Shown here one piece after another: positions 4,235-64,000 of a stretch of DNA of 64,000 nt (positions are counted from its first letter, which is position 1; each line of letters starts with the position of its first letter). Source of the stretch: Thiomicrorhabdus immobilis (GTDB lineage Bacteria; Pseudomonadota; Gammaproteobacteria; Thiomicrospirales; Thiomicrospiraceae); NCBI RefSeq assembly GCF_021654855.1, contig NZ_AP024202.1, positions 868,001 through 932,000 of the forward strand, written 5' to 3'. The notes under the pieces were generated by a model. It saw only the letters and a program-made list of their open reading frames with translations, was not told the origin of the DNA and made no database searches. Position numbers and translations under genes: made by a program.

Positions 4235-5512
4235 GTGGAAAAACAAATCAAATCAATAACAACGATTGCGTTAGTTTCAGGGCTTATTTTGCTTAGTGCC
4301 AGTTACGTTGTGCCGTTTCAAAACTGGATTTTATTGAATGCATCTGTTAATAAACCTACAGATAATCAAAGGGTTAATAGTGTTTTTTATGCTTCCGGTA
4401 TTCGTGGGATGGTCTCGGAAAACAGTCTGACGAATAATGTGATGTCTTCAAATCTGGAGTTGATAGGTGAAGATAATGATATTGATGGTGTCAAAAAACA
4501 AGCATTACCTTTAGATTTGGTAGTTGGTTCAGTTAAAACTCCGTTTAATAATCTTTCTCAAGACGATGCGTTACGTGTTGAAGAGAAGTCTTTTTCTAAT
4601 ACCTATTCAGAAAATCTACCGAATCAAGTAAAGCCTAGAGAAATTCCTTTATTGGTTGAATTAGAGGATGAAGTTTTAGTTGAGTTTTCTGCAGACTATT
4701 CCAAAAGAGATATGCAAAAAGCGCTCTCACGATTGCTGGTTTTACCTGAACGTATTGACGCTAATCGAATGGTGGCTACAGAAGCGATCAATACCCGAAT
4801 AAAACCTTATTTGTATGGGCGAGTTTTAAACGAATATAAAAAACCGATTCGTTATCCAGCCCAAGCTTTTCGTTATGCGGAATCTTTGATTTTGAACCAT
4901 AGTGAGAAAGTTACCGATGAACAGGGTGATTTCGTTGTCGTAAGTATTCCTTTAACTGAATATCAGGTTCCTAATTCGGTTAAGAGTTACCAGGCCTGGG
5001 TGAATCAATACGCAAATCAATACGGTGTATCAGCAGAGTTGATTTTTGCAATTATGCATGTGGAGAGTGCTTTCAACCCTAAAGCGGTGAGCCAGTCTAA
5101 TGCTCTTGGTTTGATGCAAATTAAAGCTGGTTCTGCTGGACGCGATGTGTATAAAAATATTGATCAACGAGCAGGTCAACCGACTAAAACGGAATTGTTT
5201 AATCCAAAAGAAAACATTCGATTGGGTACGGCTTATGTCAGTTTATTGAATAATGTGTATTTGAAAGATATTCGTAACTCTGAGAGTAGAGAGTTACTGA
5301 CAATTTCTTCATATAACGGCGGGATTTCAACGGTGTTGAAGTTATTTGGAGCTACACCTGAAAAAGCTGTTAATAGGATTAATCAGTTGCACCCTAGGCA
5401 AGTATATCGTACCTTAAGATACAAGCATCAATCTGATGAAACCAAAAGATATATAGAAAAGGTTACTCAAGCTAAAAACCGTTATAAAGAACTTCTCAAT
5501 TTTGCTGCTTAG
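4235..5512 (+). CDS. MltC-type lytic murein transglycosylase
   Basis: This enzyme would cleave peptidoglycan glycan strands to form 1,6-anhydro-muropeptides in the periplasm. The 425-residue product has an N-terminal hydrophobic segment (about residues 8-30) that looks like a signal anchor and has no lipobox, unlike classical MltC. The C-terminal SLT domain (about residues 250-420) carries AIMHVESAFNP with the likely catalytic Glu277, then SNALGLMQIK, GTAYVSLLNNVYL and SSYNGG, the MltC pattern. The N-terminal half is divergent. It starts with GTG, directly behind the flgL hairpin. Its place next to flagellar genes whose FlgJ lacks a hydrolase domain suggests it opens the wall for the rod; this is inference. 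Confidence 0.85.
   Translation: MEKQIKSITTIALVSGLILLSASYVVPFQNWILLNASVNKPTDNQRVNSVFYASGIRGMVSENSLTNNVMSSNLELIGEDNDIDGVKKQALPLDLVVGSVKTPFNNLSQDDALRVEEKSFSNTYSENLPNQVKPREIPLLVELEDEVLVEFSADYSKRDMQKALSRLLVLPERIDANRMVATEAINTRIKPYLYGRVLNEYKKPIRYPAQAFRYAESLILNHSEKVTDEQGDFVVVSIPLTEYQVPNSVKSYQAWVNQYANQYGVSAELIFAIMHVESAFNPKAVSQSNALGLMQIKAGSAGRDVYKNIDQRAGQPTKTELFNPKENIRLGTAYVSLLNNVYLKDIRNSESRELLTISSYNGGISTVLKLFGATPEKAVNRINQLHPRQVYRTLRYKHQSDETKRYIEKVTQAKNRYKELLNFAA
4989..5000. repeat. Copy of the CCAGGCCTGG palindrome inside the transglycosylase gene
   Basis: The 12-mer ACCAGGCCTGGG differs by one base from the full ACCAGGCCTGGT palindrome seen elsewhere in this window. Here it is read in the Gln-Ala-Trp frame. 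Confidence 0.7.
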
Positions 5513-5749
5513 CAATGTTGCCGATTACTTCATCAAAGCGAAATCGGTAATGTTCAATTTCGTCGATCGCTCTATTTTGTTCAAGATATTGATGCTGGAG
5601 AAATCATTACGGCTGAGCATGTTAAGAGTATTCGTCCGGGCTTTGGAATAGAGCCTAAGTATTTAGACTTGCTGATAGGTCGTAGGGTAAAACAGAGTGT
5701 AAGAAAAGGCCAGGCTGTGACTAAACAGATATTCGACCAGACCTGGTAG
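5513..5749 (+). pseudogene. C-terminal remnant of a pseudaminic/sialic acid synthase (PseI/NeuB type, SAF domain)
   Basis: The frame that continues through the transglycosylase TAG encodes about 78 residues ending at TAG 5747-5749, with no start codon and no N-terminal barrel domain. It reads FRRSLYFVQDIDAGEIIT, then EHVKSIRPGFGIEPKYLDLL, then IGRRVKQSVRKGQAV. This is the SAF (antifreeze-like) C-terminal domain of PseI/NeuB/LegI synthases, where the FRRSL and SIRPG-G--PKY motifs are characteristic. These enzymes condense phosphoenolpyruvate with a 6-deoxy-hexosamine to make pseudaminic or related acids. The synthase barrel of about 280 residues is missing, so this is a relic. The next intact genes are a Pse-associated methylase and maf, which fits an older, larger pseudaminic acid locus here. 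Confidence 0.85.
5736..5747. repeat. Near-copy of the ACCAGGCCTGGT palindrome
   Basis: ACCAGACCTGGT matches the window-wide palindrome at 11 of 12 positions and overlaps the end of the synthase remnant. Confidence 0.45.
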
Positions 5750-9197: not shown

Positions 9198-10019
9198 ATG
9201 GCAATGGTAATCAACACAAACATCGCTTCTTTAAATGCAACACGCCAACTAGACCTATCTAGTCGTGAACAATCAGTATCAATGGAACGTTTGACTTCAG
9301 GTCTTCGTATTAATAGCGCAGCAGATGATGCGGCAGGTTTAGCAGTTGCAACAAGAATGACAACTCAAATCATGGGTACGGATATGGCGATTCGTAATAC
9401 GAATGACGGTATCTCTCTTGCACAAACTATTGATGGTGCGGCAGAAGAAATGATGGGAATGATGCAGCGTCAACGTGAATTAGCAGTCCAGTCGTTGAAC
9501 GGAACTTATTCAGCCGCCAACCGAACTGCGATGGATGCAGAGTTTAATGCGTTATCAGCTGAAATGACTCGAATCTCAAGCACAACAAAGTTTAATGGTG
9601 TATCTGTTCTTGATACTGCGGCTCAAATTGAAATTCATGCCGGTTGGGAGGATAACGCAGCAGACTCGATAGTTGTTACCGCAATTGGTGGAACAGCGAT
9701 TGCAACTGCTGTAACAGCGCTAGGTGTAGACACTTCTGCAAATGCAGCTGCTGCAATTACTGGTTTAGATGGACAGATTTCAGTGTTAAATACCGCAAGA
9801 TCAGGTGTTGGTGCAGTTCAAAATCGTTTAGAGCATACGGTCGCTAACTTACAAAATATTAGTGAGAACATTAGTGCATCACGTTCAAGCATTCTGGATG
9901 CTGATTTTGCAAAAGAAAGTGCTAACTTGGCTCGTACACAGGTCTTACAGCAAGCAGGTATGAGTATGTTAAGTCAAGCTAACCAAGCTTCTCAGAATGT
10001 AATGCAGTTACTGCAATAA
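9198..10019 (+). CDS. fliC: Flagellin, first copy
   Basis: Flagellin is the filament subunit, exported through the flagellar type III system. The 273-residue product has the canonical N-terminal D0/D1 region (VINTNIASLNATRQL, SGLRINSAADDAAGLAVATRM) and C-terminal D1/D0 region (DADFAKESANLARTQVLQQAG). Only about 60 residues lie between, so it is a short flagellin with little outer domain. It is preceded by a FliA promoter and AGGGAG. It is highly similar to the next flagellin, with a near-identical central DNA tract. Ser/Thr residues in the centre are possible glycosylation sites given the nearby maf; that is inference. Confidence 0.95.
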   Translation: MAMVINTNIASLNATRQLDLSSREQSVSMERLTSGLRINSAADDAAGLAVATRMTTQIMGTDMAIRNTNDGISLAQTIDGAAEEMMGMMQRQRELAVQSLNGTYSAANRTAMDAEFNALSAEMTRISSTTKFNGVSVLDTAAQIEIHAGWEDNAADSIVVTAIGGTAIATAVTALGVDTSANAAAAITGLDGQISVLNTARSGVGAVQNRLEHTVANLQNISENISASRSSILDADFAKESANLARTQVLQQAGMSMLSQANQASQNVMQLLQ

Positions 10020-10046
10020 GTAAAATTAGAGTTTATTAGGCTTTTA

Positions 10047-10057
10047 TCAGGCCTGGT
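10047..10057. repeat. Copy of the CAGGCCTGGT palindrome between the flagellin genes
   Basis: TCAGGCCTGGT lies in noncoding DNA shortly after the first flagellin stop codon. It contains the exact CAGGCCTGGT core found at seven other sites. Confidence 0.65.
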
Positions 10058-10187: not shown

Positions 10188-11009
10188 ATGGCAATGGTAA
10201 TCAACACAAATGTAAGTTCTATCAATGCAACTCGTCAACTTGATGGAACAAGTCGTCAACAAGCAGTGTCAATGGAGCGTTTGACTTCTGGTCTACGTAT
10301 CAATAGTGCGGCAGATGATGCGGCAGGTTTAGCAGTAGCAACCAAAATGACTTCACAAATTATGGGTACTGATCAAGCGGTGCGCAATGCGAATGATGGT
10401 ATTTCTATGGCACAAACTATTGATGGTGCGGCAGAAGAAATGTCAAGCATGATGCAGCGTCAACGTGAATTAGCGGTACAATCATTAAACGGAACATACT
10501 CTGCGGCCAACCGAGCTTCAATGGATGCTGAATTTAATGCATTATCGGCTGAATTAACTCGTATTTCTTCAACAACCAAGTTTAATGGCGTGTCAGTTCT
10601 AGATACAGCTGTGTCAACTAACTTACAAGTTGGTTGGGAAGATAATGCTAATGATTCAATCAATATTACAACAATTGGTGGAACTGCGATTGCAACTGCT
10701 GTAACAGCGCTAGGTGTAGATACTTCTGCAAATGCTGCTGCTGCAATTACTGGTTTAGATGGCCAGATTTCTGTATTAAGTACAGCTCGTTCAGGTGTTG
10801 GTGCGGTTCAAAACCGTTTAGAGCACACTGTTGCTAACTTACAGAATGTGAGTGAGAATATTTCAGCAGCTCGTTCTAGCATTCAAGATGCAGACTTTGC
10901 AAAAGAAAGCGCTAACTTAGCCCGTACACAAGTGCTTCAGCAAGCGGGTATGAGTATGTTAAGCCAGGCAAATGGTAACTCACAAAACGTATTGGCTCTA
11001 TTACGATAA
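10188..11009 (+). CDS. Flagellin, second copy
   Basis: This second filament subunit also has 273 residues, with the same N- and C-terminal flagellin cores (SGLRINSAADDAAGLAVATKM; DADFAKESANLARTQVL). It starts identically to the first copy (MAMVINTN) and differs by scattered substitutions. The central segment around GGTAIATAVTALGVDTSANA is nearly identical in DNA to the first copy, including silent sites. AAAGGAG lies upstream of the ATG. Two flagellins could form a mixed filament or serve different filament zones. It probably shares a transcript with the two downstream flaG genes. Confidence 0.95.
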   Translation: MAMVINTNVSSINATRQLDGTSRQQAVSMERLTSGLRINSAADDAAGLAVATKMTSQIMGTDQAVRNANDGISMAQTIDGAAEEMSSMMQRQRELAVQSLNGTYSAANRASMDAEFNALSAELTRISSTTKFNGVSVLDTAVSTNLQVGWEDNANDSINITTIGGTAIATAVTALGVDTSANAAAAITGLDGQISVLSTARSGVGAVQNRLEHTVANLQNVSENISAARSSIQDADFAKESANLARTQVLQQAGMSMLSQANGNSQNVLALLR

Positions 11010-16455: not shown

Positions 16456-17604
16456 TTGATTAATATTGAAGAGCAAAAGCGTTTGAATGAGTTGGAAGCG
16501 GCTTTTGATTTGTTTAATCAAACCTCAATGCAATTGACCTCGTCCTACGATGCTCTTCAGACTCAGGCCGCCCATCTTCAAAAACAACTTGCGGAAAGCG
16601 ATCAAGAAAAAAGACAAGTAGCGGATAAGTTGAGCCGCTTGTTGGATTTGTTGCCTGCTGGTGTGATTGTTTTAAATGAAAAAAATCAAATACTCGAAAT
16701 GAATCCAAGTGCGAAATCGATCTTAGGTGAAGATGCGATTGGGCGTGATTGGGATATTGTCATTATGAATGTCTTTCTGAATTCAAATGATGCTGGAGAA
16801 CTCATTACCCACGACGGTTTGGTTTTTCAACTATCGGAATCTCCTGCGGATAGTGATTTAAGTCGTATTCTATTGATTCAGGATGTGAGTGCGGCAAGGC
16901 AATTGCAAGAACATGTCAGTCGTCACCAACGATTGCATTCTATGGGTGAGATGGCAGCCTCTTTGGCTCACCAGATTAGAACGCCTTTGTCTTCTGCGTT
17001 GCTGTATGTTTCTCAAATGAACTCCGAACATTTGGATACGGATAAACGCGAAAAATTTGTAGGCAAGGCGTTGAATAGTTTGAATCACTTAGAGTCCTTG
17101 GTTAAAGATATGTTGCGCTATGCCAAAGGCGGTAAAGGTAGCGAAAAAGAGATTTTAATTGATTCTTTGATTGCTAACTTGGAACAAGCTGTTGATGCTC
17201 AAATCACACAGTCGAACAGTAAAATCCGTTTTAATGGATTCTTACCAGGCCTAGTCATTACCGGGGATCAAGATGCATTGATGACTGCATTGCAGAATTT
17301 AGTTGGAAATGCCATTGATGTGGTTGGCCAAGCGGCGCAAATAGAAGTCAGTGTGAATAAACTTTCCGATGAAAAAGTGGATTTGGTCATTAGTGACAAA
17401 GGGCCAGGCATCGAATCGGAAAAGTTAGAAAAAATTTTTGAACCTTTTTATACCAGTAGGGCAAAAGGGACGGGTTTGGGTTTGGCGGTTGTTAGAGCCA
17501 TTGCCGAAGCACATGGTGGTGAAGTTTGGGTTAAGTCAATAGTGGGTTATGGCACGCAGTTTGGGTTGCGTTTACCATTAACGTCTAGAAAGGAAACTGT
17601 ATGA
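16456..17604 (+). CDS. fleS: Flagellar sensor histidine kinase FleS/FlrB
   Basis: This soluble kinase would phosphorylate FleR to switch on mid-class flagellar genes. The 382-residue product has an N-terminal coiled coil (about residues 1-60), a PAS domain (about 65-150, with LLDLLPAGVIVLNEKN), a phospho-acceptor region with His172 in HQIRTPLSSAL, and an ATPase domain with ALQNLVGNAIDV, DKGPGIE and GTGLGLAVV. No membrane segment is visible. The start appears to be TTG at 16456, seven bases after AGGTG; no ATG fits better. It overlaps fleR by four bases. Confidence 0.9.
   Translation: MINIEEQKRLNELEAAFDLFNQTSMQLTSSYDALQTQAAHLQKQLAESDQEKRQVADKLSRLLDLLPAGVIVLNEKNQILEMNPSAKSILGEDAIGRDWDIVIMNVFLNSNDAGELITHDGLVFQLSESPADSDLSRILLIQDVSAARQLQEHVSRHQRLHSMGEMAASLAHQIRTPLSSALLYVSQMNSEHLDTDKREKFVGKALNSLNHLESLVKDMLRYAKGGKGSEKEILIDSLIANLEQAVDAQITQSNSKIRFNGFLPGLVITGDQDALMTALQNLVGNAIDVVGQAAQIEVSVNKLSDEKVDLVISDKGPGIESEKLEKIFEPFYTSRAKGTGLGLAVVRAIAEAHGGEVWVKSIVGYGTQFGLRLPLTSRKETV
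17243..17254. repeat. Near-copy of the palindrome in fleS (ACCAGGCCTAGT)
   Basis: Eleven of twelve bases match ACCAGGCCTGGT, in the Pro-Gly-Leu-Val frame. Confidence 0.45.
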
Positions 17605-19013
17605 GTATTGCCAAAATTTTGGTGGTTGAAGATGATTGTGAACTTCAAGAGGCATTGGTTGATACTTTAACGTTAAATGGCTTTGAAATTATCAGTGTAA
17701 GCAGTGCCGAGGAAGCTTTGCAGGCTTTAGATGACGAAATTGGCATGGTGTTTAGCGATATCCGCATGGATGGCATGGATGGTTATGCGCTTATGTTGCG
17801 AATCCGTGCAATCAAGCCTTACTTGCCGATTGTCTTGATGACCGCTTATGGCACCATTGAACAAGCGGTTGAGGCGATGAAAGCCGGTGCTGTGGACTAT
17901 ATCGTAAAACCCTTTGAAGCCAGTGTTTTGGTGGAAAAGGCTAAGGTTTATTTCAATCGTGATGCTTCCAGTGAGGATGACTTTATTGTTGCCGAGCCTG
18001 CTACACAACAGCTTAAGACGATGGCTAAAAAAGTCGCTCAAAGTGAAGCCAGCGTTTTAATTAGCGGGGAGAGTGGTACCGGTAAAGAGGTTTTAGCCCG
18101 CTATATTCACATGCAGTCTCCTCGTGCTAAACAGCCGTTTGTTGCGATTAACTGCGCAGCCATTCCAGAAAGCATGCTTGAAGCGATGCTGTTCGGTTAT
18201 GAGAAAGGGGCTTTTACTGGGGCTGCAAAAGCGATGCCTGGTAAGTTTGAGCAGGCGCAGCATGGGACGATTTTCTTGGATGAAATCGGTGAGATGAAAC
18301 CGGATTTACAAGCCAAGCTTTTACGTGTGCTCCAAGAAAAAGAGGTTGAGCGTATCGGAAGCTCCAAGGTGGTTGAGTTGGATGTGCGTGTCCTGAGTGC
18401 TTCAAATGTCGATATGAAAAAAGCGATTGGCGAGGGAACCTTTAGGGATGACCTGTTTTATCGTTTGAATGTCTTCCCAATGCATTTACCACCTTTGAGA
18501 AAGCGTCAAAGAGATATCGCGGCGATAGCGGAACGTTTAATTCAGAGGCATTGCGGTTCTACCCGAGTTCAGCCAATGATTTCCGCCCCGGCGATGAAAC
18601 GCCTTATTCAATATACCTGGCCTGGTAATATTCGCGAATTAGATAATGTGATTCAGCGAGCCTTGGTTATGATGTCTGGTGATACCATTCAAGAGCAAAA
18701 TATCTTATTGGACGAAGGGTTTGAATCCAATGTTGTGTTAAGTTCATCCTCCGATTCGGAGTCAGTCCAATCTGCTAAAAACGATATTGATGCCATTAAC
18801 GAGTCTGAAGTTGTAACGCTATCTTATGAAGACGACTTTACTCCCATGGAGTTACCAATGGATTTAAAAGCCCGAGAAACTCAGCTGATTTTAGAAACGC
18901 TTAGGCAGAATTCTGGGCATCGTCAAAAGACGGCAGAAGCGTTGAATATTAGTCCGCGAACTTTACGTTATAAGATTGCCAAACTTAAAGAACAAGGTGT
19001 TGATGTGCCATAA
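17601..19013 (+). CDS. fleR: Flagellar response regulator FleR/FlrC (sigma54 activator)
   Basis: The 470-residue NtrC-family regulator has a receiver domain (residues 1-120, phospho-acceptor Asp53 in FSDIRMDGMDG), an AAA+ domain (Walker A GESGTGKE from 156, GAFTGA at 203-208) and a C-terminal Fis-type DNA-binding helix (KTAEALNISPRTLRYKI). It is translationally coupled to fleS by an ATGA overlap. By analogy with Pseudomonas and Vibrio it should activate sigma54 promoters of basal body, hook and chemotaxis genes. The sites before fliE, cheA and the second MCP gene are natural targets; that link is inference. Confidence 0.92.
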   Translation: MSIAKILVVEDDCELQEALVDTLTLNGFEIISVSSAEEALQALDDEIGMVFSDIRMDGMDGYALMLRIRAIKPYLPIVLMTAYGTIEQAVEAMKAGAVDYIVKPFEASVLVEKAKVYFNRDASSEDDFIVAEPATQQLKTMAKKVAQSEASVLISGESGTGKEVLARYIHMQSPRAKQPFVAINCAAIPESMLEAMLFGYEKGAFTGAAKAMPGKFEQAQHGTIFLDEIGEMKPDLQAKLLRVLQEKEVERIGSSKVVELDVRVLSASNVDMKKAIGEGTFRDDLFYRLNVFPMHLPPLRKRQRDIAAIAERLIQRHCGSTRVQPMISAPAMKRLIQYTWPGNIRELDNVIQRALVMMSGDTIQEQNILLDEGFESNVVLSSSSDSESVQSAKNDIDAINESEVVTLSYEDDFTPMELPMDLKARETQLILETLRQNSGHRQKTAEALNISPRTLRYKIAKLKEQGVDVP

Positions 19014-19569: not shown

Positions 19570-21261
19570 ATGGCTGAACAACAAGCTTCAATAGATAACA
19601 CACTGAATACCATGCCTCCTTCTGGTGTTGGGTCTACGCTGTTAAATAATCTCACTTCTTTATCGGTTGCCAAACAGGTTAGCTTGGTTGTCGCATTAGC
19701 TGCGTCACTGGCTTTGGTTGTTGGGATTGTACTCTGGTCACAAAATACTCCGTATACCTTGCTTTTCGGCAGCGTTGATGCCAAAGATATGAATGAAATC
19801 GTGCAAACATTAGAGCAGGATGGCGTTAAATATCAGATAGATCAGGCTAGCGGTGGGATTCTAGTTCCAACCGATAAGGTTCATTCATTACGTCTTAAAC
19901 TTGCCGCCGCAGGGTATCCCAAACAAGCCGCAACAGGCTATCAACTTTTAGATGCCGAACAAGGGTTCGGTATTTCTCAGTTTAAAGAAACCACCCGTTA
20001 TCATCGAGCATTAGAAGGTGAGCTGGCCAAGTCGGTATCCTCTATTAATGCGGTCAAGTCTGCAAGAGTTATGTTGGGGTTGCCTAAACGTTCGGTGTTT
20101 GTTCGTAAACAGCAACAACCTTCGGCATCGGTTGTTGTTAAGCTTTATCCTGGTAGAACCCTGAATGAAGAGCAAGTGAGTGCCATTGTCTACCTGGTCG
20201 CCTCTAGTATTCCCAATATGGATGTCAAGTTTGTTACGGTTGTTGACCAACATGGTAATTTATTAACCGGTTCTCATTCGAATACTGGCATGCTTAACAT
20301 GAGTATGAAGCAGCTTGATTATACTCGACAGGTTGAAGAGACGCTTTCCAATAGAATTATTAAGTTGCTGGCTCCTATTGTTGGTGGTGAAAATAAGGTT
20401 CGAGCTCAGGTTACAGCCGAACTCGACTTTACTCAGCAAGAGCAAACACGTGAAAACTATGAGCCTGATCCGGAAGCCGTGCGTTCTGAACAGGAAGTTA
20501 AAGAAATCAATCGTAATCAGGGACCAACAGGGATTCCTGGTGCTTTAACCAACCAACCCCCAAGAGCAGGCCTTGCTCCTGAAGAAGGCTATACGCCAGA
20601 AAACGATCCAAATCTTAAGAGCTCAAGTGAGAAGAAAACCAAAAACTATGAGCTGGATAGAACGGTTAGCCATATCAAAAATGCTGTTGGTAACATTCAT
20701 CGATTATCCGTTGCGGTTGTGTTGGATGATAAGACAAGTTTGGATGAAAATGGTGCGATTGTCCGTCAACCGTTGGGAGACGAAGAGTTGCTGCGTTATA
20801 GACGTTTGGTGAGTGATACCGTCGGTTTAGATGAAACAAGAGGCGATACTTTAAGTGTTGTAAACGCCTCATTTGTTGTTGCGCCAACCGAAGAGCTGGA
20901 AATGACACCTATTTGGCAAGAGTCGTGGTTCTGGAATTTGGTTAAACAGTTGTTAGCAGGCCTGGCGGTGTTGATTATCATCTTTGGTGTGATTCGACCG
21001 ATGTTAAGAGATCTCTCTAAGAAGGAAAAGACTTATTTGGAGTACCCGGATGATGTTCCTGAGGAAGAAGAAGAGTTAGAGAATGTCGATGAAATCTCTA
21101 AAGCTCTTGAACAAATGAATGAAGAGGTTGAGCAAACAGCAGCCGAATCTGAAGCGGAATCACAAGCTGAGCACGAGTTATTAGAGAAAGTACGAGCTAT
21201 TGTGGCTGCAGATCCAAAAGTTGCCGCCCATGTAATCAAACAGTGGATGTCTGGAGCTTAA
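19570..21261 (+). CDS. fliF: MS-ring protein FliF
   Basis: FliF forms the MS ring in the inner membrane, the base for C-ring and export gate assembly. The 563-residue product has two membrane segments, at about residues 38-57 and 458-477, enclosing the periplasmic ring-building motifs (VPTDKVHSLRLKLAAAGYP and a YscJ-like SARVMLGLPKRSVF). The C-terminus, acidic with DEISKALEQMNEEVEQ and a last helix, is the FliG-binding tail. It contains a GCAGGCCTGG repeat copy at 20956-20965. Confidence 0.96.
   Translation: MAEQQASIDNTLNTMPPSGVGSTLLNNLTSLSVAKQVSLVVALAASLALVVGIVLWSQNTPYTLLFGSVDAKDMNEIVQTLEQDGVKYQIDQASGGILVPTDKVHSLRLKLAAAGYPKQAATGYQLLDAEQGFGISQFKETTRYHRALEGELAKSVSSINAVKSARVMLGLPKRSVFVRKQQQPSASVVVKLYPGRTLNEEQVSAIVYLVASSIPNMDVKFVTVVDQHGNLLTGSHSNTGMLNMSMKQLDYTRQVEETLSNRIIKLLAPIVGGENKVRAQVTAELDFTQQEQTRENYEPDPEAVRSEQEVKEINRNQGPTGIPGALTNQPPRAGLAPEEGYTPENDPNLKSSSEKKTKNYELDRTVSHIKNAVGNIHRLSVAVVLDDKTSLDENGAIVRQPLGDEELLRYRRLVSDTVGLDETRGDTLSVVNASFVVAPTEELEMTPIWQESWFWNLVKQLLAGLAVLIIIFGVIRPMLRDLSKKEKTYLEYPDDVPEEEEELENVDEISKALEQMNEEVEQTAAESEAESQAEHELLEKVRAIVAADPKVAAHVIKQWMSGA
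20956..20965. repeat. Copy of the CAGGCCTGG motif in fliF
   Basis: GCAGGCCTGG is read in the Ala-Gly-Leu frame, within the second membrane segment of FliF. Confidence 0.5.
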
Positions 21262-21262
21262 T

Positions 21263-31651: not shown

Positions 31652-32115
31652 TGCCAATGAAATATTTTAACCAGGCCTGGTTATCTTTTGTTTTAACGTT
31701 TTATTCGTTGTCTGCTGCGGCTGAGACAAAAGCCTCCACTTCAATTGGTGAAGGTGTCACTCAGCCAAGTGAATATTTCGGACAAATCGTCTTCTCTTTA
31801 GTGCTTGTCCTGTTGATTATCTTCATTTCCGCATGGCTGTTAAGACGTTATGGCCGCTTTCCAGGTGTCGCGGAAGGCAATTTGAAAGTACTTGGAGCCT
31901 TGTCGGTTGGACAGCGTGAACGGATACTTTTGTTACAGGTGGGAAGCGAACAGATTTTAGTCGGTGTTACCAGTAGCAGAATATCTCGATTACATCAGCT
32001 TGAAGTCCCTGTAGAAGTAAAGGATAATGTGCCGGTTAGCAGTCAGTTTTCGCAACGTTTACAAGAAGCGTTAAAACCTAAGGAAAATAAGCCACACGAC
32101 CGTGAAGACCATTAA
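31651..32115 (+). CDS. fliO: Flagellar export protein FliO
   Basis: FliO helps assemble the FliP ring of the export gate. The 154-residue product has an N-terminal signal-like segment, one membrane helix (about residues 44-66, FSLVLVLLIIFISAWLLRRYG), and a cytoplasmic FliO domain with LKVLGALSVGQRERILLLQ. The ATG overlaps the fliN stop by one base (TAATG). The first codons contain the palindromic repeat at 31669-31682. Confidence 0.9.
   Translation: MPMKYFNQAWLSFVLTFYSLSAAAETKASTSIGEGVTQPSEYFGQIVFSLVLVLLIIFISAWLLRRYGRFPGVAEGNLKVLGALSVGQRERILLLQVGSEQILVGVTSSRISRLHQLEVPVEVKDNVPVSSQFSQRLQEALKPKENKPHDREDH
31669..31682. repeat. 14-bp perfect palindrome AACCAGGCCTGGTT in fliO
   Basis: Full copy of the window-wide motif extended by one matching base pair on each side. 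It is read in the Asn-Gln-Ala-Trp frame. Confidence 0.8.
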
Positions 32116-33126: not shown

Positions 33127-33906
33127 ATGACTTTTAACTACCCAGAATTTTTGCAGCTGGTTGGTTTGTACTTCTATCCCTTCGTACGCATTGGTGCAAT
33201 GCTCTCCATTATTCCCTTATACGGCATTCGAGCGGTTCCTGTTCGCGGACGTGTCATTCTTGCCGTGTTTTTAACTATTGTCATTGCGCCTGCATTGGCT
33301 TTGCCTCCTCCTGTGGATCCTTTCTCGTGGAGAGGGGTTTTATTTATTCTGCAGCAAGTCTTGATTGGTTTAGCGATGGGGGTCGTGTTTTTAGTCGTTT
33401 TCCAGGCTTTTGTGGTAGCGGGGCATTTAATCGCGATGGGGATGGGTTTGGCGTTTGCATCGATGGTCGATCCTGGAAGTGGTGTACAGGCGCCGGTGGT
33501 TGCACAATATTTCACCATTGTGGTGACTTTGCTATTTTTGGCTATGAATGGTCATTTATTGGTCATTCAGGTCATGGTGGACAGTTTTGAGTATCTTCCG
33601 ATAGGCATTAACTTCTTAAATGCGGAAAGCCTACGGCTTTTAGTCGAGTTTGGAAGCTATATGTTCTCTGCTGGTGTTTTAGTTGCGTTGCCGGCTATTA
33701 CCGCTCTATTGCTGATTAACGTTGCCTTTGGGGTCGTGACAAGGGCGGCACCGGCTTTGAATATTTTTGCGGTAGGTTTTCCGGTGACCTTGATAACAGG
33801 CCTGGTCATGCTTTCATTGACGACCCCGCTGATACTGCCACATCTGCAAGAGTTGATTCATCGAGCATTGGAGGTGATTACTCAGTTAAGGTTAACAGGA
33901 GGCTAA
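33127..33906 (+). CDS. fliR: Flagellar export gate protein FliR
   Basis: FliR is the single-copy subunit completing the gate. The 259-residue product is an integral membrane protein with about six helices and family features such as FVRIGAMLSIIPLYGIRAVPVR, GMGLAFASMVDPGSG and PALNIFAVGFPVTLITGL. It contains a repeat copy ACAGGCCTGGT at 33796-33806. Confidence 0.95.
   Translation: MTFNYPEFLQLVGLYFYPFVRIGAMLSIIPLYGIRAVPVRGRVILAVFLTIVIAPALALPPPVDPFSWRGVLFILQQVLIGLAMGVVFLVVFQAFVVAGHLIAMGMGLAFASMVDPGSGVQAPVVAQYFTIVVTLLFLAMNGHLLVIQVMVDSFEYLPIGINFLNAESLRLLVEFGSYMFSAGVLVALPAITALLLINVAFGVVTRAAPALNIFAVGFPVTLITGLVMLSLTTPLILPHLQELIHRALEVITQLRLTGG
33796..33806. repeat. Copy of the CAGGCCTGGT motif in fliR
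   Basis: ACAGGCCTGGT in the Thr-Gly-Leu-Val frame. Confidence 0.6.
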
Positions 33907-37173: not shown

Positions 37174-38349
37174 GTGAAAATTAAGCGTTATTTCGCACCA
37201 AATATGCGTCAGGCTATGAATTTGGTCAGAGAAGAGCATGGTGATGATGCCGTTATTTTATCCACTAAGGATACAGGTAATGGTGTGGAAGTCGTTGCGG
37301 CTCTGGATCCAGACTCTAATGCGGCCCAAGAAAAACAAAATGTGATGAATAGTGGTAGCACTTTCCATTCACCAGAAGTGCATCAAGGCCAGTCTGCACA
37401 ACAACAGGTAAATAGTTCTGCAGAACTGGCAAACATGGCTGGCGAACTAAAAGCGGTTAGGGCGATGCTGGAAAATCAGCTTTCAGGATTGGCTTGGGGG
37501 CAGAGTGAACAGAACGATCCTGCTAGAGTGGATTTACTAAAAAAACTGCTTCAGCTTGGCGTAGGTTGGAAGTTGAGTGAAGAACTTGTGAATGGTTTGT
37601 CTGTTATTAACCAGCAGGCCTGGTCAAGAATCTTGGACAAGATGGAATCGGAAGTACCCACTGAAGAGCGTGATCTTCTTGAAAGAGGGGGGATTGTCGC
37701 TTTGGTAGGGCCAACAGGTGTCGGAAAAACGACAACCATTGCAAAGATGGCGAGTCGATTTGTAATGAGAAATAGTCCGAATGAGTTGGCTTTGATTACC
37801 ACGGATTGTTATAAAATTGGCGCACAGGCACAGTTGAAAACATTTGCCGAGTTAATTAATGTTCCGGTCCATGTAGCGAAAACTCAAGGCGAGCTTTATG
37901 CGCTATTGACTTCCTTAACAAATAAAAAATTGATATTGATCGATACTGCTGGAATGAGTCAGAGAGACCTACAATTATCTCAACAGGTTACTTCAGGTCA
38001 TCAGGGGATTACAACGGTTAGAAATTACTTGGTGATGTCTGCGGCTACACAATTATCGGTAATGAAAGATATTGTGAAGTCTTTTAGCCAGGTCGTCCTT
38101 ACAGGTTGTATTTTGACTAAGGTCGATGAAGCTGTACAATTAGGTAATGTATTAACGGTTTTGATTGAAGAAAAATTACCGATAGCTTACCTTTCAAATG
38201 GGCAAAGAGTCCCAGAGGACTTAGAATCTGTGAGGACAAGAGAGTTGATTGATCGAGCGATAGTCCTAGGTCGGCAAAACACACAAAATAATGATAATGA
38301 GCAAGCGTTCCGTTTAGGAATGGGTAAGGAGATTTCAGATGCTCAATGA
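37174..38349 (+). CDS. flhF: Flagellar placement GTPase FlhF
   Basis: FlhF is an SRP-type GTPase that sets the polar position of the flagellum. The 391-residue product has a basic and Gln-rich N-terminal part, then the NG domain with P-loop GPTGVGKT at 179-186, TTDCYKIGAQAQLKTFAEL and LIDTAGMSQRD. It starts with GTG two bases after the flhA stop and uses AGGGAGG inside flhA. It carries a repeat copy at 37614-37624. Confidence 0.96.
   Translation: MKIKRYFAPNMRQAMNLVREEHGDDAVILSTKDTGNGVEVVAALDPDSNAAQEKQNVMNSGSTFHSPEVHQGQSAQQQVNSSAELANMAGELKAVRAMLENQLSGLAWGQSEQNDPARVDLLKKLLQLGVGWKLSEELVNGLSVINQQAWSRILDKMESEVPTEERDLLERGGIVALVGPTGVGKTTTIAKMASRFVMRNSPNELALITTDCYKIGAQAQLKTFAELINVPVHVAKTQGELYALLTSLTNKKLILIDTAGMSQRDLQLSQQVTSGHQGITTVRNYLVMSAATQLSVMKDIVKSFSQVVLTGCILTKVDEAVQLGNVLTVLIEEKLPIAYLSNGQRVPEDLESVRTRELIDRAIVLGRQNTQNNDNEQAFRLGMGKEISDAQ
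37614..37624. repeat. Copy of the CAGGCCTGGT motif in flhF
   Basis: GCAGGCCTGGT in the Gln-Ala-Trp frame. Confidence 0.6.
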
Positions 38350-41361: not shown

Positions 41362-43389
41362 GTGGATGAAGAGATTTTACAAGACTTTTTAGTTGAGGCA
41401 TCTGAGTTGGTTGATCAACTAAATGAGCAGCTAGTAGACTTAGAGCAATCGCCCACAGATGCTGATCTACTTAATGCTGTATTTAGAGGTTTTCACACAA
41501 TCAAAGGTGGTGCTGGATTCTTAGGTATCACCCCTCTTATCGAAGTTTGCCATAGAGCTGAAAATGTATTCGATAAGATTCGTAATGGTGATGTGAGTTA
41601 TGACGCGGTAGCGGCCGATGTCATTTTACGTGCTTTCGATGTGATTAGCGATTCGATTGAACTCTTGAATGATGGTGAACGTGAACTTCCAGAAAACAAC
41701 CCTCAGTTACTTGTCGATTTAGATGTGTTAACCAAAGGGGGAGCCGCTCCTCAAGTTGTTGTTGAACCGCCTAAGGCTGAGGTAGGTCTTAAGTTGGCCG
41801 AAGGGGTCGATCCTGATGGCGATATGACGGATGAAGAGTTTGAAGCGTTGCTGAATCAACGAGATTCTGGTGCCGAAACTGCCGAGTCGTCTTCTGCCGG
41901 TTTATCTCTTGCCGAAGGGGTTGATCCTGATGGAGATATGACGGATGAAGAGTTCGAAGCTTTATTGAACCAACGTGATGCCGTTTCTAGCAACCCCTCA
42001 AATGAAGATTCGAATGCGCTTTCTTTACCTGAAGGTGTCGACCCTGATGGCGACATGACGGATGAGGAGTTCGAAGCTTTATTGAACCAGCGTGATATGG
42101 TTTCTGATGAGCCAGAGATTGTTTTACCGCCATCAAAGCCGATAGTGACACAAGCGGCAGCCCCTGCTCATAAGCCTATGGCAAGTTCTTCTGCAAAACC
42201 GGAAGCCAAAGCTCCGGTAAAAAACAATACCGAGTCAACGGTTCGAGTAGATACCAAACGTTTAGATGAAATTATGAACCTGGTCGGTGAATTGGTATTG
42301 GTTCGTAACCGTTTATTGACGTTAAGAGGCCCAAATCAGAATCTTGAAGACATTTCAAATGCAGTAGGCAATTTGGACCATGTTACTACGGACTTGCAAG
42401 CGTCTGTGATGAAGACTCGAATGCAGCCTGTTAAAAAGGTGTTTGGTCGATTCCCGCGTGTTGTCCGTGATTTGGCTAGGAAGCTGGGCAAAGAAATCGA
42501 ACTTGAGCTGAAGGGTGAAGAGACCGATTTAGATAAGAATTTAGTCGAAGCCCTTGCCGATCCACTAGTGCATTTAGTGCGTAATTCGGTGGATCATGGT
42601 GTGGAAATGCCTGCCGATCGTATTGCCGCTGGCAAACCTAAAAACGGTACGGTTGTTTTAGCCGCTCAACAAGAAGGGGATCATATCCTGCTATCTATTA
42701 CCGATGATGGAAAAGGAATGGATCCTGATTTGCTCCGTCGTAAGGCGGTTGAAAAAGGCATGATGGATGAAATGACAGCAAACCAGCTAGATGATAAATC
42801 AGCGTTTGAACTGATTTTATCAGCCGGATTTTCTACTGCAGAAACGATAAGTGATATTTCTGGTCGTGGTGTGGGAATGGATGTTGTTAAAAATATGATT
42901 ACCAAACTTAATGGTAGTATCGACATCCACTCTGTTTTAGGTCAAGGCACTGAAATTAGTATTCGAGTTCCTTTGACTTTAGCGATCCTACCCACCTTGA
43001 TGGTCTCTTTTGGGAATGATAGTTATGCAATTCCATTAACCAGTGTTCAAGAAATTTTTGATTATGACAGTAGCAAAACCAATAAGATCGATGGACAAAT
43101 GATGGTTCGTTTAAGGGAACGTAGTGTTCCGTTATTCTTTTTGTCTGAATGGTTGGCGCCGGATTCGGTCAAAGACGACTATCGTGGTGACAAGGTTATT
43201 ATTGTTTCGGTGGGCAATCAAAGAGCAGGCCTGGTTGTTGATCAAGTTAACGGCCAAGAAGAGGTGGTTATCAAGCCTCTAGGTGTTGGTTTGAAACATG
43301 TCTATGGTTATGCAGGAGCAACGATTACCGGGAACGGCAATATTGCTTTAATTTTAGATTTACCTGGCGTTGTACAGCGTTTTCAATAG
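41362..43389 (+). CDS. cheA: Chemotaxis histidine kinase CheA with triplicated linker motif
   Basis: CheA phosphorylates CheY and CheB in response to MCP signals. The product (675 residues from GTG 41362; a GTG at 41353 would add three) has an HPt domain with the phospho-His in FHTIKGGAGFLG, a linker, the P3 dimerisation helices (KRLDEIMNLVGELVLVRNRL), the P4 kinase domain (HLVRNSVDHGVEMP, DISGRGVGMDVV) and a CheW-like P5. No recognisable P2 domain is present; instead the linker holds three copies of a 22-residue acidic repeat. I chose GTG 41362 because AAGGGG (41348-41353) is eight bases before it. A repeat copy of the CAGGCCTGG motif lies at 43225-43235. Confidence 0.95.
   Translation: MDEEILQDFLVEASELVDQLNEQLVDLEQSPTDADLLNAVFRGFHTIKGGAGFLGITPLIEVCHRAENVFDKIRNGDVSYDAVAADVILRAFDVISDSIELLNDGERELPENNPQLLVDLDVLTKGGAAPQVVVEPPKAEVGLKLAEGVDPDGDMTDEEFEALLNQRDSGAETAESSSAGLSLAEGVDPDGDMTDEEFEALLNQRDAVSSNPSNEDSNALSLPEGVDPDGDMTDEEFEALLNQRDMVSDEPEIVLPPSKPIVTQAAAPAHKPMASSSAKPEAKAPVKNNTESTVRVDTKRLDEIMNLVGELVLVRNRLLTLRGPNQNLEDISNAVGNLDHVTTDLQASVMKTRMQPVKKVFGRFPRVVRDLARKLGKEIELELKGEETDLDKNLVEALADPLVHLVRNSVDHGVEMPADRIAAGKPKNGTVVLAAQQEGDHILLSITDDGKGMDPDLLRRKAVEKGMMDEMTANQLDDKSAFELILSAGFSTAETISDISGRGVGMDVVKNMITKLNGSIDIHSVLGQGTEISIRVPLTLAILPTLMVSFGNDSYAIPLTSVQEIFDYDSSKTNKIDGQMMVRLRERSVPLFFLSEWLAPDSVKDDYRGDKVIIVSVGNQRAGLVVDQVNGQEEVVIKPLGVGLKHVYGYAGATITGNGNIALILDLPGVVQRFQ
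41800..42096 (+). repeat. Three copies of a 66-bp repeat in the cheA linker
   Basis: Copies at 41800-41865, 41914-41979 and 42031-42096 each encode 22 residues around DPDGDMTDEEFEALL, with identical amino acids in all three. The DNA differs at a few mainly silent positions. Spacing is 114 and 117 bases. The intervening segments are low-complexity Ser/Ala/Glu stretches. Confidence 0.95.
43225..43235. repeat. Copy of the CAGGCCTGGT motif in cheA
   Basis: GCAGGCCTGGT in the Ala-Gly-Leu-Val frame. Confidence 0.6.
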
Positions 43390-47072: not shown

Positions 47073-47900
47073 ATGAGTGAACGAGAGTTTGAATTCAAGG
47101 ATCAGGATTTTAGTCGTGTTAAAACGATTGTTTATGACTACGCGGGTATTGATTTAAATGATTCAAAAAAGAATCTAGTTTATAACCGGTTATCAAAACG
47201 TATTCGTTTTTTAAATATGCACAGTTTTTCGGAGTATCTAGATTTTGTTGAAAATCAAGGAGAAGCCGAATTTGTCCATTTGATTAATGCAATCACAACA
47301 AATCTAACCTTCTTTTTCAGGGAAAATCATCATTTTGACTATTTGGCGAAGACGGTTATCCCAGGCCTGTTGAAATCGAATTCGGCATCAAAAAAAGTTC
47401 GCATTTGGTCGGCTGGTTGTTCTACAGGTGAAGAGCCATATTCAATCGCCATCATATTGAAAGAATCCATGCCTGCTGGCTGGGACGCAAAAGTGATTGC
47501 AACCGATTTGGATTCAAACGTAGTGAGTGCAGGTCAAAGCGGTATTTACAAAATGGATCGCTTAAAAGGCGTTAGTGAAGAAAGAAAGAAACGCTGGTTT
47601 TTAAAGGGGTCTGGTTCGCAAGAAGGTTATGTGAAAGTAAAGCCTGAGCTACAACAAATCATCGAATTTGGTCAACTTAACTTAATGCACGACTGGCCAT
47701 TAAAGGATGATATTGATGTTATTTTTTGTAGAAATGTGGTGATTTACTTTGATAAACCGACCCAAAGTAAATTATTCAACCGTTATGCCGATAGGCTTCC
47801 AGAAAATGGACATCTTTTTATAGGGCATTCGGAATCTCTATATAAAGTCTGTGATCGCTTTGAGCTTTTAGGGCAAACTATTTACAGAAAAATAAAATAA
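47073..47900 (+). CDS. cheR: Chemotaxis methyltransferase CheR
   Basis: CheR methylates glutamates of MCPs using SAM. The 275-residue product has the helical CheR_N domain and the SAM domain with VRIWSAGCSTGEEPYSIAI, VIATDLDSNVVSAGQSGIY and VIFCRNVVIYFDKPTQSKLF. cheB follows. Confidence 0.96.
   Translation: MSEREFEFKDQDFSRVKTIVYDYAGIDLNDSKKNLVYNRLSKRIRFLNMHSFSEYLDFVENQGEAEFVHLINAITTNLTFFFRENHHFDYLAKTVIPGLLKSNSASKKVRIWSAGCSTGEEPYSIAIILKESMPAGWDAKVIATDLDSNVVSAGQSGIYKMDRLKGVSEERKKRWFLKGSGSQEGYVKVKPELQQIIEFGQLNLMHDWPLKDDIDVIFCRNVVIYFDKPTQSKLFNRYADRLPENGHLFIGHSESLYKVCDRFELLGQTIYRKIK
47360..47370. repeat. Near-copy of the CCAGGCCTGG motif in cheR
   Basis: CCCAGGCCTGT; nine of ten core bases match, in the Pro-Gly-Leu frame. 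Confidence 0.4.
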
Positions 47901-49324: not shown

Positions 49325-50593
49325 ATGCTTGATGTCATCAAAACCTATTGGCCGGCCTGGTTAATGACCTTGCTAGGTGTGGTTTTAAGTTTTATGGAAA
49401 TCCCCTATATTGGTGTCATTATGCTTCTAGTGGTTTCAATTGTTTGGACCTTGCTAGTGGCAAATTTTGCCAAGTTCGGTGTTAATAAGCAAAGCAAAGA
49501 AAGTCTTTCTGGCTCCGATGAGCCTGTTTCAGCCCCTCAAGTGGCGATGACCAGCGATGATAAAGCGGCTATGCTCAGGGTGATAACCGCTGATGAATCA
49601 TTACGTCTTATCATGAATGATGTCGATGCGGTGATTTCGCAAGAAGTTGGTATCGTGGGCGATGAATTGATTCAAGTCAAAACATTGGTATCTGAGGCAA
49701 TCGATACTTTAAATGGCAGTTTTTCGAGTTTACATGAGCAAACACAAGCCGAGTATCAGTTAGTGGTCTCTCTGTTAGACAACTTGGGCGGTGGTGAAAA
49801 CTCTAATGAAATGAGTATTCAAAAGTTTTCTGCCGAGATTAAGGTGGTCTTACAGTATCTTATTGATTTGTTGACCAATGCGAGTCATCGCAGTACTCAG
49901 ACGGTTTCAAAAATTGATGATATGGTGGGGCAAATCGAATCTATTTTCCATCTTTTAGAAGATGTAAAAGGTATTGCTGACCAGACTAACTTATTGGCTT
50001 TAAACGCTGCAATAGAAGCTGCCCGAGCGGGAGAAGCAGGGCGAGGGTTTGCGGTGGTGGCAGATGAAGTGCGTAAACTGTCCTTGAATTCAAATGTATT
50101 GAACGAACAAATTCGTAAACAGGCTGAACAAGCGCGAGTAACGGTTGATCAGGTAAGAAGCATTGTTAGTGAAACGGCCACAAAAGACATGGAGCATGCG
50201 GTCTCTTCACAAGATAAAGTGGGCACAATGTTAGGTGACTTAGAAGATATGAATGATGGTATCTCCTCTAAACTCGGTGATGTATCAGGCATGATTTCTG
50301 AAATTGAGTTAAGTGTTTCCAATGCGGTGCGTTCTTTACAGTTTGAAGATATTGTTAGGCAGTTGGTTGAGCAGGTGATGAGTCACTTGCAGAATCTAAA
50401 TAATTTCTCCAGTGAAATTGGTGAGTTTATCGAACAAAGCCAAATGAGTCCGGCTCAATCTGAAGATGAGCATAAGCAACGTGTTGAGGAGTTTAGAGCT
50501 AAAATCCATCAAAAACGCCAAGAAATACAAGATACTCGTATGAGCCGAGTCAATACCTCAAGTATGGATGAAGGTGAAATAGAGCTGTTTTAG
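49325..50593 (+). CDS. Methyl-accepting chemotaxis-like protein without sensor domain
   Basis: The 422-residue product begins with two closely spaced membrane segments (about residues 9-26 and 28-50), leaving almost no periplasmic loop, followed by a cytoplasmic helical part. The MCP tip ([34 protein letters not shown]) is near residues 218-255. There is no HAMP domain and no CheR-docking pentapeptide. It may sense an internal or membrane signal. It sits behind its own sigma54-type promoter, after cheR-cheB. A GCCGGCCTGG repeat variant lies at 49351-49360. Confidence 0.88.
49351..49362. repeat. Variant of the palindrome (GCCGGCCTGGTT)
   Basis: Differs from CCAGGCCTGG at one core base (A to G). 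Read in the Pro-Ala-Trp frame. Confidence 0.4.
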
Positions 50594-52479: not shown

Positions 52480-52509
52480 TTCACACTTACCAGGCCTGGT
52501 AAGTGTGAA
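52480..52509. repeat. 30-bp perfect palindrome containing ACCAGGCCTGGT
   Basis: The left half TTCACACTTACCAGG is followed immediately by its exact reverse complement. The central 12 bases are the window-wide motif. It lies between the trxB stop (52542) and the FKBP start (52430), so on the reverse strand it could end the trxB transcript as a hairpin, but the T tract is not a classical one. It could also be a protein site. Confidence 0.9.
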
Positions 52510-56977: not shown

Positions 56978-58329
56978 TGTCAGTTTACCGACCATTGTCA
57001 GACCGCTTAAGGCCAACTGAACTTAAGGATTATGTCGGCCAAAAACACCTCTTGGGTGAAAAGCGGGCTTTGTCACGTATGCTGGATTCAGGCCGCTTGC
57101 ACTCCATGGTGTTTTGGGGGCCGCCGGGAGTGGGGAAAACCACCTTGGCACGCTTGATTGCCTTGCAGTCTGATTTACAGTTCATTAATCTTTCTGCGGT
57201 TTTGGACGGGGTCAAAGAGGTGCGAGCTGCAGTTGAACAGGCCAAACTGCACCGTCAACAGTTTCAACAGGGAACTTTGTTGTTTGTGGACGAGGTGCAT
57301 CGTTTCAATAAAGCGCAACAGGATGCGTTCTTACCGTTTGTGGAAGATGGCACTTTTGTGTTTATTGGTGCCACCACTGAGAACCCTTCTTTTGAACTCA
57401 ACAACGCTTTGCTTTCAAGAGCCAAAGTGTATGTGTTGAGAACGTTGGAAGAGGACGAATTGTCGACGGTTTTGGAGCGTGGTCGCGCCTTATTGGAAGC
57501 GGATTTGAATGCCGATGATTCTCTCTCAGAAAAAGTACAGATTGAGATTGAAGATAAGGCTGCTGAGTTATTGATTGAAGCGGCTGATGGTGATGCAAGA
57601 CGTTTATTGAACAGCCTTGAACAAGCCATGGATTTCGCCGAATATGAAGCCAAGCAAAACCAACCAGGCCTGGTAAGGTTGACCACCGATAATTGCAAAG
57701 AGGTGATTCAAGGGGGTGTCAGACGTTTTGACAAGGGAGGCGAGGCGTTTTACGATCAAATTTCAGCACTGCATAAGTCCATTCGTGGTTCAGATGCCAA
57801 CGCCGCTTTGTATTGGTTGGTTAGAATGCTGGATGGTGGTGCCGACCCTCGTTATCTGGGGCGAAGGCTTATTAGGATGGCCAGTGAAGAGATCGGTAAT
57901 GCCGACCCTAAAGCCTTGCAAATAGCCATCAATGCCGCAGAGTCTTATGAACGTTTAGGCTCGCCAGAAGGTGATTTGGCTTTGGCTCATGCCGCCAGTT
58001 ATTTGGCGGTGGCGCCAAAATCCAATGCGGTTTACATGGCTTATAAGGCCGTATTGGCGGACATTAAAGAGCATGGCTCGCATGAGGTGCCGTTGCATCT
58101 ACGTAACGCGCCCACTAAATTGATGGCTGAATTGGACTATGGTCAGGGGTATCGTTATGCACATGACGAACCTGAAGCCTTTGCCGCTGGAGAAAGTTAT
58201 TTCCCGGATGACATGCTGGAAAAAACCTACTACCAACCGGTTGAACGCGGTTTGGAAATCAAGATTTCAGCCAAGATGGAGTATCTCCGTCAATTGAATG
58301 AAAATGCTATTTATAAAAGACGTTCATAA
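56977..58329 (+). CDS. rarA: Replication-associated recombination protein RarA
   Basis: RarA is an AAA+ ATPase of the clamp-loader family that acts at stalled forks. The 450-residue product has Walker A GPPGVGKTTLAR, Walker B LLFVDEVHRFNKAQQDAF, sensor GATTENPSFELN, and the C-terminal tetramerisation and lid region. It holds a complete ACCAGGCCTGGT copy at 57663-57674. Confidence 0.96.
   Translation: MSVYRPLSDRLRPTELKDYVGQKHLLGEKRALSRMLDSGRLHSMVFWGPPGVGKTTLARLIALQSDLQFINLSAVLDGVKEVRAAVEQAKLHRQQFQQGTLLFVDEVHRFNKAQQDAFLPFVEDGTFVFIGATTENPSFELNNALLSRAKVYVLRTLEEDELSTVLERGRALLEADLNADDSLSEKVQIEIEDKAAELLIEAADGDARRLLNSLEQAMDFAEYEAKQNQPGLVRLTTDNCKEVIQGGVRRFDKGGEAFYDQISALHKSIRGSDANAALYWLVRMLDGGADPRYLGRRLIRMASEEIGNADPKALQIAINAAESYERLGSPEGDLALAHAASYLAVAPKSNAVYMAYKAVLADIKEHGSHEVPLHLRNAPTKLMAELDYGQGYRYAHDEPEAFAAGESYFPDDMLEKTYYQPVERGLEIKISAKMEYLRQLNENAIYKRRS
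57663..57674. repeat. Complete ACCAGGCCTGGT palindrome in rarA
   Basis: Exact 12-bp palindrome, read in the Pro-Gly-Leu-Val frame. Confidence 0.8.
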
Positions 58330-60044: not shown

Positions 60045-60056
60045 ACCCGGCCTGGT
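60045..60056. repeat. Variant of the palindrome after gcvT
   Basis: ACCCGGCCTGGT, 11 of 12 bases matching ACCAGGCCTGGT, in noncoding DNA just after the gcvT stop codon. Confidence 0.45.
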
Positions 60057-63525: not shown

Positions 63526-64000
63526 TGAAAAAATCGATTGTCATCAGTGTGCTGGGTAACGACTCACCAGGCCTGGTCAAATCACTTTCCAAACTGATTG
63601 TGGCGCATCAAGGTGAATGGATAGAAAGCCGCATGGCGAGTTTGGCAGGGAAGTTTGCCGGCATCTTGCGGGTAGATTTACCTTCTGATCAGGTGATGGA
63701 TTTTCAAGCGGCTTTGCAAAATCATCAACAGCTTGGATTAAGTGCCATTTTTGAAGAGAGTCATAGCAATGGTTCTGCACAAAAAACCAATCAGTTCGAG
63801 ATTGAATTGATTGGTCAAGACCAACCTGGAATTGTGCACCGTATCTCTTCGGCACTGGCGCAAATCAATGCCAGTGTGGATGAGTTGCATACTGAGGTGA
63901 TTGAAGCGGCCATGACCGGCGAAAACCTCTTTAAAGCGGATATCAAAGTGCATATTGCCCGTGATGTGAAGGCGGCAGAAATAAGAGCCTTGCTGGAAGA
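63525..64000 (+). CDS. GcvR-like glycine cleavage regulator with ACT domains (3' end cut by window)
   Basis: The visible 158 residues contain two ACT domains: KKSIVISVLGNDSPGLVKSL and QFEIELIGQDQPGIVHRISS. This is the GcvR layout; GcvR in E. coli antagonises the activator GcvA in response to glycine. It begins with an ATG overlapping the gcvP stop (TAATG), so it belongs to the gcv operon. The C-terminus lies beyond the window. A related ACT-domain regulator is possible. Confidence 0.8.
   Translation, partial: MKKSIVISVLGNDSPGLVKSLSKLIVAHQGEWIESRMASLAGKFAGILRVDLPSDQVMDFQAALQNHQQLGLSAIFEESHSNGSAQKTNQFEIELIGQDQPGIVHRISSALAQINASVDELHTEVIEAAMTGENLFKADIKVHIARDVKAAEIRALLE
63566..63577. repeat. Complete ACCAGGCCTGGT palindrome in the gcvR-like gene
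   Basis: Exact 12-bp palindrome, read in the Pro-Gly-Leu-Val frame. Confidence 0.8.

Follow-up and report, generated by a model that had tools for sequence, protein, structure and literature searches.

To our knowledge, no family of DNA uptake words has been well described beyond those of the Neisseriaceae and the Pasteurellaceae. The DNA uptake sequences (DUS) of the former are not known to be palindromic. Cyanobacteria hold repeated words of another kind, the highly iterated palindromes (HIPs), which keep their core while their flanks vary; we know of no association of HIPs with terminators. As far as the excerpts of PMC12616744 go, uptake words are named for the Neisseriaceae and the Pasteurellaceae, and genomes with DUS or uptake signal sequences (USS) carry hundreds or thousands of motifs, in dialects, which are often inverted repeats that double as rho-independent terminators; the same excerpts give the USS as not palindromic, with AT-rich regions downstream. 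In its excerpted parts, PMC3630211 describes DUS dialects that share an invariant CTG core and follow phylogeny, and PMC4390886 describes cyanobacterial HIPs as palindromes at very high copy that go with orphan methylases. Here we analyse a palindromic word, the 12-mer ACCAGGCCTGGT, that recurs along a stretch of 64,000 bases of Thiomicrorhabdus immobilis (the window, bases 868001-932000 of a single-contig genome of 2,539,444 bases, 100% complete, labelled G000).

We propose that the word is probably an independently evolved, mostly palindromic DNA uptake (self-recognition) sequence of the Thiomicrorhabdus/Hydrogenovibrio/Thiomicrospira family. A surface receptor of the uptake machinery, the presumed reader of the word, would bind the invariant GGCC and the flanks particular to each lineage (in the window's genome, ACCAGGCCTGGTnRnTTT), a cell would preferentially take up DNA of its own species, and recombination would then accumulate and maintain the word, some intergenic copies of which may have been co-opted as terminators. 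Set beside the Pasteurellaceae USS (AAGTGCGGT, ACAAGCGGT), as the excerpts portray it, the word is alike in copy number, in its core with an AT-rich flank, in its clade dialects and in its probable use as a terminator; the core and the family differ. With the DUS, again as excerpted, it shares an invariant inner core (CTG in DUS, GGCC here) and clade-specific flanks that follow phylogeny. The traits found here are thus those of DUS and USS: a copy number far above chance, a fixed core with clade dialects (whose grouping was compared with an FlhA tree), an AT-rich flank, sites within and between genes, and terminator-like stems. The direction of DUS and USS words is absent from the window's genome, where the word is palindromic, and present in one relative, G020. 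Because these traits agree while palindromy and the missing receptor differ, we think it likely that the word works like a DUS or USS, and we assign it to neither of these known families.

Excess, conservation and placement of the word

A chance origin of the copies in the window is excluded: CAGGCCTGG matches 16 times on the two strands, against 0.33 on average and at most 5 in shuffles, and the 12-mer matches 18 times at no more than two mismatches (shuffles 1.44, maximum 5). The whole genome holds 446 exact copies of ACCAGGCCTGGT and none of the reversed control. Our genome sample (1,195,144 bases and the window, together 1,259,144 bases or about half of the genome) contains 204 exact 12-mers, where Markov models of orders 1-4 expect 0.04 to 0.39; orders 5 and 6 expect 6.6 and 54, figures inflated by the word itself. 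The runner-up 12-bp palindrome in the sample has 4 copies. The sites are spread evenly, at 16-24 per 100 kb over ten chromosome bins, and their numbers per 20 kb are Poisson-like (variance/mean 0.96 over 62 chunks), by which a position-specific chromosome or segregation site is rejected. The sole chunk of the 62 without a site (L184, G000 412101-432100) is the rpoB/rpoC/EF-G/EF-Tu region, a content by which it was rejected as a mobile element.

CCAGGCCTGG occurs 250 times in the sample, and these copies yield an extended palindrome, AAAnYnACCAGGCCTGGTnRnTTT. The flanking purine and T's also appear at the 133 genic copies, the T's more weakly, and are therefore not only the tails of terminators. 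Among 113 one-mismatch copies, 95 vary at the outer positions 11-12 (folded) and 2 within the GGCC core.

The word is also conserved in position. Across the flagellar region, 145 of the 208 aligned exact 12-mers are unchanged in the partner genome; the corresponding figures are 11,497 of 262,744 (4.4%) for control 12-mers and 171 of 4,123 for other GGCC-centred 12-mers. All were taken over seven word-rich genomes compared in 42 ordered pairs, which share sites and hence are not independent. In G003, G019 and G023 each of six aligned window sites has at least 3 mismatches, and the window sites at 36425 and 43224 are not kept in most relatives. A preliminary description of the window had named comparison with Markov expectation and conservation in relatives as tests that might refute the word, and it survived both, the first in the half-genome sample (204 against 0.39 at order 4) and the second at 145 of 208 sites against the 4.4% of controls. 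It had also read the word in two frames (Pro-Gly-Leu-Val and Gln-Ala-Trp) and had suggested selection on the DNA and not the protein. The reading in two frames stands: among the 11 translated genic sites of the window, x-(P/A/T)-G-L-x appears at 7, x-Q-A-W-x at 3 and T-W-P-G at one (18615, ACCTGG...), and the genic 12-mers of the sample fall 46, 38 and 10 to the three frames. With the genome-wide excess, the sites both within and between genes and the conservation at orthologous places, these two main frames support a word that acts at the level of DNA.

The simple gene caller places 106 of 200 exact 12-mers of the sample in intergenic DNA, which makes up 17% of bases. For 102 of these a called gene stands on either side; 35 of the 102 fall in convergent gaps, which hold 15% of intergenic bases, and 5 in divergent ones, which hold 18%. 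The word is enriched downstream of genes. Intergenic DNA makes up 13.5% of bases in 14 relatives and holds 68 of their 180 sites. Inside genes there is no bias to either end, save that the first tenth is slightly over-represented (20 of 155). Some intergenic copies form hairpins: at the unconserved positions +-2 and +-4 intergenic copies pair at 0.52 and 0.46, against 0.29 and 0.26 expected, while genic copies stay near chance (0.31 against 0.26, and 0.29 against 0.27). Since the stem is longer by at least 5 pairs at 37 of 117 intergenic copies and at 5 of 133 genic ones, a longer, terminator-like hairpin is seen at about one third of the intergenic copies and not among the genic half. These hairpins may terminate transcription.

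Dialects and patchy absence within one family

The FlhA of the window is closest to those of Thiomicrorhabdus, Hydrogenovibrio and Thiomicrospira, plus Thiotrichales metagenome-assembled genomes (MAGs), and the word is restricted to this clade. Among 369 class genomes only two, both of this family, have more than 5 copies of the 12-mer (G000 with 446 and G035 with 181), and the maximum outside the family is 5; the family members G026 and G058 have none. What changes within the family is the flanks: the GGCC core is constant and lineages have their own dialects, ACCAGGCCTGGT, TACCGGCCGGTA, AGCAGGCCTGCT and the directional TCAACAGGCCGG. Unguided counts give the ACCAGGCCTGGT dialect in G000, G015, G009, G030, G021, G027, G018, G033, G036 and G064, TACCGGCCGGTA in G023, a looser-flanked CAGGCCTG in G025, G005, G017 and G063, a AGCAGGCCTGCT-like dialect in the MAG at L001, and CCGGCCTGTTGA (reverse TCAACAGGCCGG) in G020. 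The dialect of G035 is CAGGCCTG[C/G]T, the core CAGGCCTG having been chosen beforehand. G020 also carries, at L150, L279 and L280, six near-identical units in which the directional TCAACAGGCCGG follows cacgtacacaagtact.

To cover these dialects we counted CMGGCCKG, and called a genome word-rich, by a rule set after counting, if it had at least 400 forward matches and at least 4 times the control. By this rule 33 of the 58 family genomes are word-rich. The window's genus contributes 16 (of 28), g3 its single genome, g5 all 9 and g6 7 (of 11); the 9 genomes of g2, g4 and g28 contribute none. Most of the 25 word-poor genomes are mildly above control (141 against 45 in G003, 285 against 130 in G026), so that word-poor means low and not zero. 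In an FlhA tree (31 rows, the protein filter having dropped 8 of the 39 candidates, namely G030, G002, G019, G026, G072, G074 and two outgroups), the word-poor genomes form five branches among the rich ones: G076 with G078, G013 with G024, G028 with G016, G001 and G012, G003, and G031 with G014. Starred forks delimit the first three; less sure are G003 (87/75) and G031 with G014 (unresolved in the tree). This patchy absence of the word probably reflects loss, separate gains being the alternative. Decayed relics were rejected for G003, G019 and G024, where 60 kb of each genome has no excess of copies at 1-2 mismatches. Nor is there a clear other word in G003 and G019 (60 kb each), in G026, G014 and G011 (40 kb), in G031 and G013 (20 kb), or, from raw counts only, in 20 kb of G074; the search for a replacement in G024 returned a tandem-like repeat only. 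Overlapping 12-mer repeats (CCGTTGCTTTCC; ATTAAAGATTAA) dominate the word counts of G024 (L138-L140) and G058 (L273-L274).

Uptake and its rivals

Several observations weigh against an uptake word. The USS of the excerpted source is not palindromic and is AT-rich downstream, whereas the word here is palindromic in its main dialect, with T-rich flanks on both sides. In G000 like halves are slightly in excess (unlike pairs at the next position number 111, against 124.7 expected), which is what a homodimeric reader would give, and the directional word of G020 is only weakly enriched between genes (5 of 27, against 13.6% noncoding). The uptake machinery does not follow the word either. ComEC occurs in 54 of the 58 family genomes, the rich ones accounting for 32 (of 33) and the poor ones for 22 (of 25). 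Among DUS and USS systems, ComP is the receptor of the DUS and ComN/PpdA a predicted receptor. The Pfam family of ComP, ComP_DUS, has no match over cut-off in the 58 genomes; GspH/FimT matches in three of them only, all word-poor. ComP_DUS and GspH/FimT were rejected as receptors, not being found in rich genomes. PilM (PF11104) has matches of about 350-370 amino acids in 9 of 9 g5 and 11 of 11 g6 genomes, the four word-poor ones of g6 among them, while the window's genus has no PF11104 match of PilM length: its matches measure 416-443 amino acids, with one of 261, and three genomes have none. By their length we read those of this genus as probable FtsA, and a canonical type IVa pilus is thus without support there. 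PilM and ComEC, neither of which tracks the word, were rejected as its predictors. Prepilin counts separate rich from poor genomes in g6 (7-10 against 2-3), with no such split in g1 or g5, and the word-rich G010 (86% complete) has 0 prepilin matches. Finally, no paper on competence in this group is among the literature matches listed.

These machinery data are compatible with uptake and no proof of it, and nothing tested follows the word family-wide. G000 itself has a PilT-family ATPase over the curated cut-off and two PilB/GspE-like ATPases under theirs, both with the MshE-type c-di-GMP motif. A type IV pilus-like cluster at L223:11137-19527 (G000 ~2.357-2.365 Mb) encodes a PilB/MshE-like ATPase, a protein that by eye is PilC/GspF-like, and four proteins with the look of prepilins (238, 412, 391 and 746 amino acids); of three tested, two match the prepilin N-terminal domain, and the other two were recognised by eye. 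This cluster is a possible place to look for the receptor of the word. At L224:1108-12637 lies a type II secretion cluster (labels by eye), and its pseudopilins are the displayed prepilin matches of G000.

Could the word instead be bound by a homodimeric protein, a nucleoid organiser or a global regulator, that drifts in specificity from one species to the next? Its palindromic extended motif with symmetric flanks, the like halves found together in G000, the even chromosomal spread and the conserved sites would all suit such a protein. Yet in 60 kb of G020 the unlike-half CAGGCCGG occurs 27 times, against 3 for the like-half forms (CAGGCCTG 1, CCGGCCGG 2), or 21 unlike against 3 like pairs once 6 copies of one repeat array are removed, where free pairing would give ~12 of 24; an A-rich tract stands, by eye, on one side only. 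This preference for unlike halves speaks against an obligate homodimeric reader, as does the scarcity of the word between divergent genes (the 5 of 102 above, for 18% of intergenic bases) against the protein as a whole, and we consider this explanation unlikely. Less likely again is a HIP1-like word, that is, a methylation target tied to mismatch repair or another maintenance function. HIP1 (GCGATCGC) and other cyanobacterial HIPs are, in the excerpts of PMC4390886, very-high-copy palindromes too, and the fixed 4-bp core would agree with them; those HIPs go with orphan methylases, whereas the window's genome has no match to PF00145 (C5 methylase, 1e-8) or PF01555 (N4/N6 methylase, 1e-6), which leaves the model without support. 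PF00145 is likewise absent from 25 of the 33 rich genomes, PF01555 from 23 and both from 18, no other methylase families having been searched; either methylase was rejected as a driver of the word, and the directional dialect of G020 is a further difficulty.

A Chi-like recombination signal read by RecBCD would account for a word that is over-represented, conserved and found within and between genes. The motif is long, has AT-rich flanks and is used in hairpins, its dialect changes among congeneric species, and as a palindrome it has no direction, all of which makes the Chi-like reading improbable. As for the reading in which the copies are intrinsic terminators of one family that share a conserved GGCC loop, the 106 intergenic 12-mers of 200, often downstream of genes, and the longer stems (37 of 117 against 5 of 133) argue in its favour; but about half of the copies are genic, with flank pairing near chance, genic window sites are conserved too, and one dialect is directional. 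Terminators alone are thus largely refuted by the genic sites, and we regard this as the least credible of the explanations, very improbable indeed. The preliminary description had offered a methylation target, a nucleoid or segregation site, or an uptake word; the uptake word stands as the best-fitting, still unproven, candidate, while the methylation target lacks support, PF00145 and PF01555, the two methylase families searched, being missing from G000, and the position-specific segregation site lacks it too, given the even density.

Rather tentatively, we envision the uptake word as a further self-recognition code, that of sulfur oxidisers, which would have switched between palindromic and directional forms, kept its GGCC, used a receptor unrelated to ComP, been lost repeatedly and doubled as a terminator. 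If so, an additional family of uptake words would exist in free-living chemolithoautotrophic sulfur oxidisers, and a single genus with rich, poor, palindromic and directional species would allow comparative tests of how such codes arise, drift and are lost; the word would also be a handle for transforming organisms of the Thiomicrorhabdus group. If it is no uptake word, it would still be a DNA signal that spans the genome and whose reader evolves fast; no description of the word in this group is among the literature matches listed, which are open-licence papers only.

Sites of the word in the window

The ten forward 9-mers and four exact 12-mers of the preliminary description are all in place. 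Its near matches (5736, 17244, 47360, 49350 and 60045) are indeed one-mismatch relatives of the 9-mer, with the amendment that 47360 is exact on the reverse strand; against the 12-mer they have 1, 1, 2, 3 and 1 mismatches, respectively. Its list lacked the near-sites at 18615, 36425 and 36953 (ACCTGGCCTGG[T/C]).

Along the window, ACCAGGCCTGGG (4989-5000, +) lies within a lytic transglycosylase-like gene, in the QAW frame, and ACCAGACCTGGT (5736-5747, +) is intergenic with 1 mismatch. ATCAGGCCTGGT (10046-10057, +) starts 27 bases past the stop codon of a flagellin gene, the first of two tandem open reading frames of equal length (9198-10019 and 10188-11009, 273 amino acids each). ACCAGGCCTAGT (17244-17255, +) belongs to a sensor kinase-like gene; the site has decayed in the window, and all six word-rich relatives compared show an exact 12-mer at this place. 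The near-site ACCTGGCCTGGT at 18615-18626 (+) is genic, in what we take to be a sigma-54-type response-regulator-like gene. Flagellar genes hold AGCAGGCCTGGC (20955-20966, +, fliF), an exact 12-mer (31670-31681, +, fliO-like), AACAGGCCTGGT (33795-33806, +, fliR-like, Pfam Bac_export_1) and two near-sites in flhA, ACCTGGCCTGGT at 36425-36436 (+), not conserved in the relatives compared, and ACCTGGCCTGGC at 36953-36964 (+). AGCAGGCCTGGT occurs twice, at 37613-37624 (+) in a gene that encodes an SRP54-type GTPase domain, presumably flhF-like by its position, and at 43224-43235 (+) in a cheA-like gene that falls under the curated CheA cut-offs. CCCAGGCCTGTT (47360-47371, +) lies in a cheR-like gene, and GGCCGGCCTGGT (49350-49361) is a mixed form with half-sites of two dialects.

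The exact 12-mer at 52489-52500 sits in a terminator-like 26-bp inverted repeat (52482-52507) between two minus-strand genes, and is exact in G015, G009, G030 and G021. That at 57663-57674 (+), in an MgsA-type AAA gene, is exact in the same four genomes and in G027. ACCCGGCCTGGT (60045-60056, +) starts 8 bases past the stop codon of a gcvT-like gene. The last exact 12-mer (63566-63577, +) starts 41 bases past the gcvP stop; overlapped by a short open reading frame from the simple gene caller, it was labelled genic in the comparison of relatives, and it is exact in G015, G009, G030, G021 and G027.

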